A DNA stretch of 44,970 bases from Prevotella sp. (GTDB lineage Bacteria > Bacteroidota > Bacteroidia > Bacteroidales > Bacteroidaceae), in assembly GCA_022773825.1 (NCBI GenBank), contig JALFOF010000059.1, positions 1-44,970 of the forward strand, in the 5' to 3' direction. A model generated the notes under the pieces. It searched no databases and was not told the origin of the DNA. It was given only the letters and a program-made list of their open reading frames with translations. This document shows positions 29,588 through 32,107 of this stretch, in pieces. The position numbers and the translations under genes were made by a program. Numbering within the stretch: position 1 is the first letter of the stretch; the number at the start of each line of letters is the position of its first letter.

Positions 29588-30094
29588 TTATCCTTCTATT
29601 GTAATGAATTCCTCCAGATGTTCATCCACGAAATGGGCAACGGTGTCCGTCCATTGCTCCTCGTTAGTGACGAAGTCATCGTCGAAATCATCGAATACCT
29701 GCATGGTCTCATATAAAGCCATGAACTCTTCATCTGTCATCTCCTTCTCTATAACCTCACGGTGGCGAAGGTATTGTTTCTTCGCTCTGCGCATTAGGCG
29801 GCATAGTTCCAGCAGCCCCCAGTCTCGCACAGCGGCATCAAAGGGGTTGTGAAAGAAGAACGGACCGTAACCATTGTGTATAAGCTGTACGAAACCGCCG
29901 TCCATCACCTCCTCGCGCAGCGTGGCATAGCCTATCAACGTGATTTGTTTCGAGGACATAAGTGGCATATTCTCCGCCGTCAGCTCACCGCCGATGGCGG
30001 CGCGAGTCTTGTCAATGATAAGTTGCAGGAATGTGTCCGCACCTGCCGATGCTGCCTGTGACAGCTCATTGTCGTTTATCTTTACTTCTATCAT
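29588..30094 (-). CDS. DMP19-family (DUF4375) protein
   Basis: 168-aa acidic protein. Residues about 45-160 resemble the DUF4375/DMP19 fold: [20 protein letters not shown], then [16 protein letters not shown]. The C-terminus is strongly acidic ([15 protein letters not shown]). The founding member, Neisseria DMP19, is a dimer that mimics DNA and titrates a transcription factor. Whether this one does so is unknown, but the acidic surface fits. It lies 10 bp upstream of smpB and behind its own promoter, so any regulator function could be linked to ribosome-rescue conditions. Confidence 0.75.
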
Positions 30095-30308: not shown

Positions 30309-31010
30309 ATGATTTACACAAAGGAAATCAACGACATGTGCGTCGTTGCGAAAGGTCCTAACCATGGACCTGCTCCAATCCCCGAAGAGGGTAAGTGGAT
30401 TCAGGCAAAGGAGATAAAGGATATCTCTGGCATGACTCATGGTATTGGCTGGTGCGCTCCACAGCAGGGTTGCTGCAAGCTGTCACTCAACGTAAAGGAC
30501 GGCGTCATAGAGGAGGCTCTCGTTGAGACCATAGGCTGTTCAGGCATGACGCACTCTGCTGCCATGGCTTCGGAAATTCTTCCTGGCAAGACCATCTTGG
30601 AGGCTCTCAACACGGACCTCGTATGCGATGCCATCAACACGGCAATGCGCGAGCTCTTCCTTCAGATTGTTTACGGCCGCACGCAGTCAGCTTTCTCAGA
30701 AGGCGGTCTCGCTATTGGTGCTGGCCTTGAAGACCTCGGAAAGGGTCTCGTATCACAGTGTGGTACACTCTATGGCACAAAGGCAAAGGGTACACGTTAC
30801 CTTCAGCTCACAGAGGGATACATCACAAAGCAGTATCTTGACGAGGACAATGAGGTATGCGGATATGAGTTTGTACACATGGGCAAGTTCATGGATGCAG
30901 TGAAGAAGGGTGTTGACGCCAATGAGGCTCTCAAGCAGGTTACTGGCACATACGGCCGTACGAAGCCAGAGCAGGGCGCTGTTAAGTTTATTGATCCACG
31001 TAAAAACTAA
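30309..31010 (+). CDS. NifU/IscU-like iron-sulfur scaffold-type protein
   Basis: 233-aa protein; ATG 30309 (MIYTKEINDMCVVAKGPNHG) is preferred over the open frame to 30222. Residues about 45-125 resemble an IscU/NifU N-terminal scaffold: GWCAPQQGCCKLSLNVKDGV, then TIGCSGMTHSAAMASEILPG, then KTILEAL, parallel to the IscU GCGxAxASSSxxTE segment. Candidate cluster-binding cysteines are Cys49, Cys55, Cys56, Cys77 and Cys106. The C-terminal 100 residues are an extension absent from IscU. It pairs with the GGGtGRT gene 15 bp downstream, an arrangement I recall in many anaerobes. No cysteine desulfurase is nearby. Its true role is not established as far as I know. Confidence 0.8.
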   Translation: MIYTKEINDMCVVAKGPNHGPAPIPEEGKWIQAKEIKDISGMTHGIGWCAPQQGCCKLSLNVKDGVIEEALVETIGCSGMTHSAAMASEILPGKTILEALNTDLVCDAINTAMRELFLQIVYGRTQSAFSEGGLAIGAGLEDLGKGLVSQCGTLYGTKAKGTRYLQLTEGYITKQYLDEDNEVCGYEFVHMGKFMDAVKKGVDANEALKQVTGTYGRTKPEQGAVKFIDPRKN

Positions 31011-31025
31011 ATAGGAGGAAAAAAC

Positions 31026-32036
31026 ATGATTCGTGAAGTAAAATTTGAGTCACAGGACCGTCGTATCAAGCAGATTCTTGCTGCGTTGAACGAGTACGGC
31101 ATTTCTTCTATTGAAGAGGCTAACGAGATATGTGATAAGGCAGGCATCGATCCTTACAAGACTTGTGAGGAAACACAGATGATTTGCTTCGAGAATGCTA
31201 AGTGGGCATACGTGGTAGGTTGTGCCATCGCAATAAAGAAGGGCTGCAAGACAGCTGCTGAAGCTGCGGAGGCTATAGGCATTGGTCTTCAGTCTTTCTG
31301 CATCCCAGGCTCAGTTGCTGACGACCGTAAGGTAGGTATTGGTCACGGAAATCTGGCCGCACGTCTTCTCCGTGAAGAGACAGAATGCTTCGCTTTCCTT
31401 GCTGGTCACGAGTCCTTCGCTGCTGCGGAGGGTGCTATTAAGATTGCTGAGATGGCTAACAAGGTTCGCCAGAAGCCTCTCCGCGTCATCCTCAATGGTC
31501 TTGGCAAGGACGCTGCTATGATTATCTCTCGTATCAATGGATTTACATACGTGCAGACACAGTTTGACTATTACACTGGCGAGCTGAAGGTTGTTAAGAC
31601 AAAGGCTTACTCTGATGGTCCACGTGCAAAGGTGAACTGCTACGGTGCTGACGATGTCCGTGAGGGCGTTGCAATCATGTGGAAGGAGAATGTAGATGTA
31701 TCAATCACCGGTAACTCTACTAACCCGACACGTTTCCAGCATCCTACCGCTGGCACATACAAGAAGGAGCGCATCCTTGCTGGTAAGCCATACTTCTCAG
31801 TAGCTTCTGGTGGTGGTACAGGTCGTACTCTGCACCCAGACAACATGGCTGCAGGTCCTGCTTCTTACGGTATGACAGACACCCTCGGACGTATGCACTC
31901 TGACGCGCAGTTCGCTGGTTCTTCATCTGTTCCTGCACACGTAGAGATGATGGGCTTCCTCGGCATAGGTAACAATCCGATGGTAGGTTGCACCGTGGCT
32001 TGCGCCGTTAACGTAGCGCTTGCACAGAACAAGTAA
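31026..32036 (+). CDS. GGGtGRT-family protein
   Basis: 336-aa protein of the uncharacterised GGGtGRT family, named after the motif at 262-268 here (VASGGGTGRTLHPDNM). It is cysteine-rich for a cytoplasmic protein: Cys36, 47, 54, 66, 74, 92, 121, 205, 322 and 326. His/Gly-rich segments such as GIGHGNLAARLL, and SITGNSTNPTRFQHP, suggest a phosphate- or metal-binding site. It has no signal peptide or membrane segment. An AGGAGG site precedes it and codon choice looks like that of a well-expressed gene. It is coupled to the NifU-like gene. I infer a joint Fe-S or sulfur-related function, but no activity is known to me. Confidence 0.88.
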   Translation: MIREVKFESQDRRIKQILAALNEYGISSIEEANEICDKAGIDPYKTCEETQMICFENAKWAYVVGCAIAIKKGCKTAAEAAEAIGIGLQSFCIPGSVADDRKVGIGHGNLAARLLREETECFAFLAGHESFAAAEGAIKIAEMANKVRQKPLRVILNGLGKDAAMIISRINGFTYVQTQFDYYTGELKVVKTKAYSDGPRAKVNCYGADDVREGVAIMWKENVDVSITGNSTNPTRFQHPTAGTYKKERILAGKPYFSVASGGGTGRTLHPDNMAAGPASYGMTDTLGRMHSDAQFAGSSSVPAHVEMMGFLGIGNNPMVGCTVACAVNVALAQNK

Positions 32037-32061: not shown

Positions 32062-32107
32062 AATCAGACCTCTCTTCTTGATATTGTATCATGGGAGAGG
32101 TCTGATT
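32062..32107 (+). terminator. Terminator of the NifU-like/GGGtGRT operon
   Basis: AATCAGACCTCTC (32062-32074) and GAGAGGTCTGATT (32095-32107) form a perfect 13-bp stem, 26 bp after the stop. Confidence 0.85.

Follow-up and report, generated by a model that had tools for sequence, protein, structure and literature searches.

A two-gene NifU-like/GGGtGRT unit in Prevotella as a predicted iron-sulfur-dependent alternative to enolase

The window, by which we mean the whole analyzed stretch of 44,970 nucleotides of Prevotella sp. DNA, contains a pair of adjacent genes encoding a NifU-like protein of 233 residues (30309..31010, + strand) and a GGGtGRT protein of 336 residues (PF14057; 31026..32036, + strand). 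The 15-bp gap between them (31011..31025, + strand) carries in its sequence an AGGAGG ribosome site for the second gene. A strong 15-bp hairpin (32062..32107) separates the pair from the convergent alaS gene and, having a T-run on the minus strand only, in the alaS direction, is likely the alaS terminator. A gene for a DMP19-like protein (PF14300, profile match; 29588-30094, - strand) is divergent to the pair, and the wider gene content of the window includes a thrA-thrC run, groES-groEL, smpB and alaS. A phosphoglycerate-mutase-like metalloenzyme (PF10143, PF01676; 5270-6526), flanked by the aspartokinase-homoserine dehydrogenase and threonine synthase genes, is likely, as a predicted function, a homoserine kinase of that metalloenzyme family and not a glycolytic mutase. 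The nearest named record for the pair is from uncultured Prevotella (L027), with 97% identity in the GGGtGRT protein and 98% in the NifU-like protein. The 34 other window ORFs scanned include no Fe-S assembly gene, and no cysteine desulfurase is among the window ORFs scanned.

The preliminary description had regarded the two genes as an uncharacterized module distinct from a standard Fe-S assembly operon. Both points were borne out, as the pair is a constant two-gene unit whose members are adjacent in every locus with room for testing. In all but five of the 201 fetched GGGtGRT loci, the GGGtGRT gene is preceded on its own strand by the NifU-like gene (196 loci, in 177 of them within 60 bp), and in those five the contig ends within 107 bases of the GGGtGRT gene; many genomes were fetched more than once, and the set includes one broken remnant (L026). 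The co-occurrence check proposed for the pair gave a concordant result: by profile search of 149 genomes of the order, each protein is present in 26 genomes, 25 of them common to both, and in the unpaired genomes (G170 and G284) the gene sits at a contig end. The pair was found by profile search in 26 of 80 relatives, and also in 1 of 148 genomes of a phylum sample (the window's own), in 16 of 249 genomes from the phylum of an Oscillospiraceae genome (G343; "clostridial" below) and in 9 of 120 from the phylum of a Treponema genome (G345). Its distribution is thus patchy; further copies were seen in Collinsella and on large replicons of Vibrio and Persicobacter. In the GGGtGRT gene tree, copies from the Treponema set (G345, G675, G680, G710) nest among Bacteroidales copies, which points to horizontal transfer.

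We compared the occurrence of the pair with that of enolase. Enolase (TIGR01060) was not detected in the window's own genome (G000), using a search that gave a match in 14 of 14 named control genomes, and 27 of the 80 relatives, the window's genome included, were without a match. Pair and enolase were searched in the same 80 relatives. Restricted to the 55 with a completeness of 90% or more, the comparison gives the pair in 11 of 12 genomes without enolase versus 8 of 43 with enolase (Fisher p 6e-6; since the sampled genomes are related, this and the following p-values are indicative), while 35 have enolase alone and one (G165) has neither. At the same completeness, the window's genus gives 10 of 10 versus 5 of 17 (p 4e-4), and the ten enolase-lacking carriers include a single-contig genome (G340). 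With incomplete genomes included, the figures are 15 of 27 versus 11 of 53 for all 80 relatives (p 0.002), and the association is weak for all 48 members of the genus (14/24 versus 8/24, p 0.07). The order sample gives 4/7 versus 22/142 (p 0.018), or 2/3 versus 19/113 once the overlap with the relatives is removed (p 0.08). In the clostridial phylum (249 genomes, completeness unstated) the pair is found in 6 of 14 genomes without enolase versus 10 of 235 with it (p 6e-5), three of the 235 matching TIGR01060 below cut-off, and in the Treponema phylum (120 genomes, completeness unstated) the difference is not significant (2/12 versus 7/108, p 0.22).

Pooled over 565 genomes, the pair is present in 25 of 56 enolase-lacking and 47 of 509 enolase-bearing genomes, so that enolase is also present in 47 of the 72 genomes with the pair; these counts include pair calls from contig-end fragments (G302, G308, G313) and one broken remnant (G243). 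Of the 31 enolase-lacking genomes without the pair, many are incomplete or have no stated completeness. A tree of 67 GGGtGRT genes, which leaves out three pair-bearing, enolase-lacking relatives with fragments, requires 15 changes to account for the enolase-lacking state, and well-supported branches force at least 11 of them, so that enolase loss recurs. The genome with neither system, G165 (Bacteroidales, order sample; 99% complete), has the phosphoglycerate mutase gene gpmI; either its assembly has a gap here, or a different solution exists. Ten genomes of the Treponema set, of unknown completeness, were likewise seen to be without enolase and pair (G610, G631, G640, G647, G648, G671, G682, G693, G703 and G713).

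The genomic position of the pair is informative in a subset of loci. Five clostridial-type genomes (G594, G520, G570, G490 and G375) carry the order gap-pgk-tpi-gpmI-NifU-like-GGGtGRT on a single strand, and in G594 and G520 a pyruvate kinase gene comes next; gene names are from NCBIfam for G594 and from similarity for the other four, and the G570 and G490 loci are near-identical. With gap-pgk-tpi-gpmI before it and pyruvate kinase after it, the pair occupies the enolase slot of lower glycolysis. In a Bacteroidales genome (G270), gpmI lies upstream of the pair on the same strand. Among the 98 loci with a length of 7 kb or above, 12 have one or more of the glycolytic neighbors tested, never with enolase among them, and most copies of the pair thus stand alone. 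A gene named by eye as PPi-phosphofructokinase-like was also observed near the pair in nine loci (L008, L011, L014, L019, L020, L038, L058, L086 and L097), mostly on the opposite strand. The preceding step of the pathway appears intact: a search for gpmI (TIGR01307) in 29 of the 56 enolase-lacking genomes gave a match in 27, 25 of them over cut-off (the match in G455 is a fragment and that in G471 weak), and gpmI is full-length in all 15 Bacteroidales with the pair and without enolase. 2-Phosphoglycerate should therefore form in these enolase-lacking cells and would require dehydration.

The absence of enolase from such organisms is a recognized question, as the cited sections of several reports indicate. 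Butyrivibrio proteoclasticus B316 is described as having no identifiable enolase gene and very low enolase activity in extracts (PMC2914790); the low activity would be consistent with an oxygen-labile enzyme only for an assay run in air. Enolase is likewise reported missing from 18 Butyrivibrio genomes (PMC6912079), P. xylanivorans MA3014 (PMC7523725), B. hungatei MB2003 (PMC5716241), rumen Butyrivibrio, Prevotella and Lachnospiraceae (PMC6118326), and Endomicrobia (PMC11257099, which also cites this absence for other termite-gut symbionts). In P. brevis GA33 it is missing from both genome and proteome, according to the cited part of the report, and glucose is still fermented (PMC10542786). 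Reviews from 2023 and 2024 term the enolase substitute unclear in the passages cited (PMC11026938, PMC11187502). A comparison of enolase-positive and -negative Butyrivibrio that sought a complementing gain is stated, in the cited section, to have given no substantial further insight (PMC6118326); this counts against a pair confined to enolase-negative genomes, and less against a pair present in both.

Published expression data, again as given in the cited sections, connect the pair to iron. In Clostridium pasteurianum grown with iron, the GGGtGRT protein rises 7.1-fold (early) and 2.2-fold (late) and the NifU-like protein is up to 3.7-fold higher, and without iron enolase, present as two spots, rises 4.1-/4.8-fold early and 4.0-/1.8-fold late (PMC5395762). 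In Bacteroides thetaiotaomicron at low iron, the pair (BT0173-74) falls 11- to 12.8-fold (P 0), and a three-gene run that includes eno rises 2.0- to 7.7-fold (P 0.144; PMC10434189). The pair thus rises with iron while enolase falls, which fits an alternative enolase.

From this evidence we consider it likely that the pair is a two-subunit, iron-sulfur-dependent enolase that converts 2-phosphoglycerate to phosphoenolpyruvate and stands in for the classical enzyme. The preliminary description had left the choice between a dedicated cluster carrier and a cluster-using enzyme; the evidence favors the enzyme, and replacement of enolase is a function not considered there.

Fluoride provides a further link. 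Enolase is a classical fluoride target, blocked at its magnesium site, and is itself a member of fluoride-riboswitch regulons. Twenty pair loci were scanned with Rfam for the fluoride riboswitch RF01734, which lies in front of or beside the pair in five and was not found in the other 15; there is none in the window. In two clostridial loci it precedes the NifU-like ORF by 29 nt (L173) and 62 nt (L175), and in a third (L174) by 807 nt with another ORF intervening; all three have two CrcB fluoride-channel genes and a DUF190 gene downstream of the pair. In the Treponema set, the riboswitch directly follows the GGGtGRT gene ahead of a Na/H exchanger gene (L177), or is divergent, on the opposite strand and at a distance of 287 bp from the start of the NifU-like gene (L178); in L178 (9990-10658, + strand) short ORFs come after it that by eye resemble CrcB and DUF190 remnants. 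A second fluoride riboswitch was seen beside the end of the DUF190 gene in L173 (6687-6748, - strand). As it would not depend on the fluoride-blocked magnesium site, the predicted enzyme would resist fluoride. Pyrophosphatase is likewise fluoride-sensitive, and together with the glycolytic and PPi-phosphofructokinase neighbors this would also suit an enzyme or regulator with a different glycolytic or fluoride-relevant role, for example a pyrophosphatase or an activator, with phosphoenolpyruvate made in another way; a methylglyoxal shunt has indeed been proposed for Butyrivibrio in the cited part of one report (PMC2914790). However, gpmI is present in the same genomes and pyruvate kinase adjoins the pair in two, which places the pathway gap at enolase, and we judge such a role improbable.

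The NifU-like subunit has the IscU fold, with a core at about residues 38-128 followed by a conserved C-terminal extension, although it scores below the gathering cut-off of PF01592 (NifU_N; 20.3 bits versus 22, residues 57-113) and reaches 25.8 bits against a cut-off of 187.9 for TIGR03419. A conserved loop at residues 127-141 is predicted with low confidence. Cysteine conservation, flagged in the preliminary description as a check on both proteins, holds for this subunit: C49, C77 and C106 are kept in 191 of 191 aligned rows and C56 in 189, and H44 is invariant. The canonical IscU/NifU scaffold ligands are Cys-Asp-Cys-Cys, and LPPVK is the chaperone motif of IscU scaffolds. In the 191-row alignment the canonical ligand set is not present in the NifU-like protein: the first cluster-cysteine position of IscU aligns with Q53, a glutamine in 191 of 191 rows, the ligand aspartate aligns with a gap, and the second cysteine corresponds to C77. 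LPPVK is absent from the window protein, and PPVK occurs in none of the fetched NifU-like rows.

These features bear on whether the pair could be a dedicated Fe-S scaffold or carrier, in which the NifU-like protein would assemble or hold a cluster, with the GGGtGRT protein as its client or loading partner and without a glycolytic role. The IscU-fold core with conserved cysteines would suit such a role, as would induction of the pair by iron in the published excerpts and a locus of Collinsella aerofaciens (L188), in which the pair follows sufB-sufD-sufS-sufU at about 1.9 kb with a transposase in between. We nevertheless regard a carrier as unlikely, given the lack of a desulfurase among the window ORFs scanned, the glutamine at the first ligand position, the missing PPVK motif and a partner without an invariant cysteine for receiving a cluster; a carrier would also leave enolase loss, glycolytic operons and fluoride riboswitches unexplained.

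The GGGtGRT protein of the window is a full-length member of PF14057 (636 bits versus a cut-off of 27, profile positions 1-325 of 327), a family to which the cited portions of the literature assign no function. It consists of a helical N-terminal part followed by a Rossmann-like alpha/beta part, and contains a highly conserved loop (263-301) predicted with low confidence. No confident fold match was found for it, and the fold therefore gives no structural pointer to phosphate binding. Here the expectation of conserved cysteines failed: the ten cysteines of the window protein are not conserved among copies, one of which has a single cysteine, and where the GGGtGRT copy has just one to three cysteines its NifU-like partner retains all the conserved ones. 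Invariant in the GGGtGRT protein are four histidines, H107, H128, H239 and H305. According to the cited sections, the GGGtGRT protein is termed highly expressed in the chicken caecum (PMC11204068), and both pair proteins are detected in gut and rumen metaproteomes (PMC11204068, PMC7035244). Such abundance in vivo, combined with the strong iron response in the published excerpts, might suggest iron-sulfur storage or iron buffering by a pair produced only under plentiful iron. The long invariant motifs and invariant histidines are instead typical of an active site, and storage has no tie to enolase loss or operon position; we therefore hold it to be highly improbable.

For the predicted enolase, we consider the following Fe-S hydro-lyase mechanism reasonably likely. 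The NifU-like subunit would hold a cluster, probably [4Fe-4S] with one iron open to substrate, by C49, C77 and C106, and C56 might serve as a fourth ligand that can be displaced. The GGGtGRT subunit would bind the phosphate and carboxylate of 2-phosphoglycerate and supply the base that takes the C2 proton, its candidate active-site parts being the invariant histidines, K161, D162 and the GGGTGRT and GSSS loops, and the open iron would remove the C3 hydroxyl. The precedent for this chemistry is the Fe-S L-serine dehydratase; its substrate has an amino group where 2-phosphoglycerate has the phosphate, and is otherwise the same. In genomes with both systems, the iron enzyme would be in use under ample iron, and the magnesium enolase under iron shortage. 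Such a mechanism would account for the induction by iron, for the exchange with Mg2+ enolase, for the bias towards anaerobes and for the connection with fluoride. The wider picture that we favor, on balance, is that enolase evolved independently a second time, as a [4Fe-4S] 2-phosphoglycerate dehydratase that is labile to oxygen and tolerant of fluoride. It would combine a cluster subunit derived from a scaffold with an orphan alpha/beta subunit, would have spread horizontally among anaerobes, and would repeatedly have replaced the Mg2+ enzyme, being swapped with it according to iron supply.

Among known systems, enolase itself (EC 4.2.1.11; TIGR01060, PF00113/PF03952) shares with the pair the predicted reaction and place in the pathway, whereas the pair has two subunits, a predicted Fe-S cluster in place of Mg2+, and rises with iron where measured. 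No enolase family is among the Pfam/NCBIfam matches of either pair protein or, with E values up to 10, among those of 55 GGGtGRT members. With IscU/NifU/SufU (PF01592, TIGR01999, TIGR03419) the NifU-like protein has in common the core fold and the GC motif (C77), but it differs in its score below the Pfam cut-off, its Gln at the first ligand position, its C-terminal extension and its constant GGGtGRT partner. For the [4Fe-4S] hydro-lyases, nearest in chemistry among them the Fe-S L-serine dehydratase, the points of comparison are the three invariant cysteines of the NifU-like subunit, as candidate ligands of a cluster with an open iron, and the predicted beta-elimination of water from HOCH2-CH(X)-COO-; unlike them, the pair has no Pfam match to this group and carries its predicted cluster on an IscU-like domain. 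A named two-gene candidate makes the missing-enolase question directly testable. If the prediction is true, glycolysis has a second, non-homologous enolase, a cluster scaffold has turned into a catalytic subunit, and a well-expressed orphan family gains a function; it would also explain how many rumen and gut bacteria manage without a near-universal enzyme, and would connect the flow of carbon through the central metabolism of major anaerobes in rumen and gut with iron and oxygen.

Finally, the arrangement of the pair varies in some loci. The inter-gene gap is 97-518 bp, and not about 15 bp, in L006, L009, L010, L024, L025, L059, L061, L065, L067, L069, L097, L106 and L114. In L026 and L161 (G243) the pair is decayed, the start of the NifU-like gene, interrupted by stops, running into the second half of the GGGtGRT gene; G243, the bearer of this decayed pair, has enolase.
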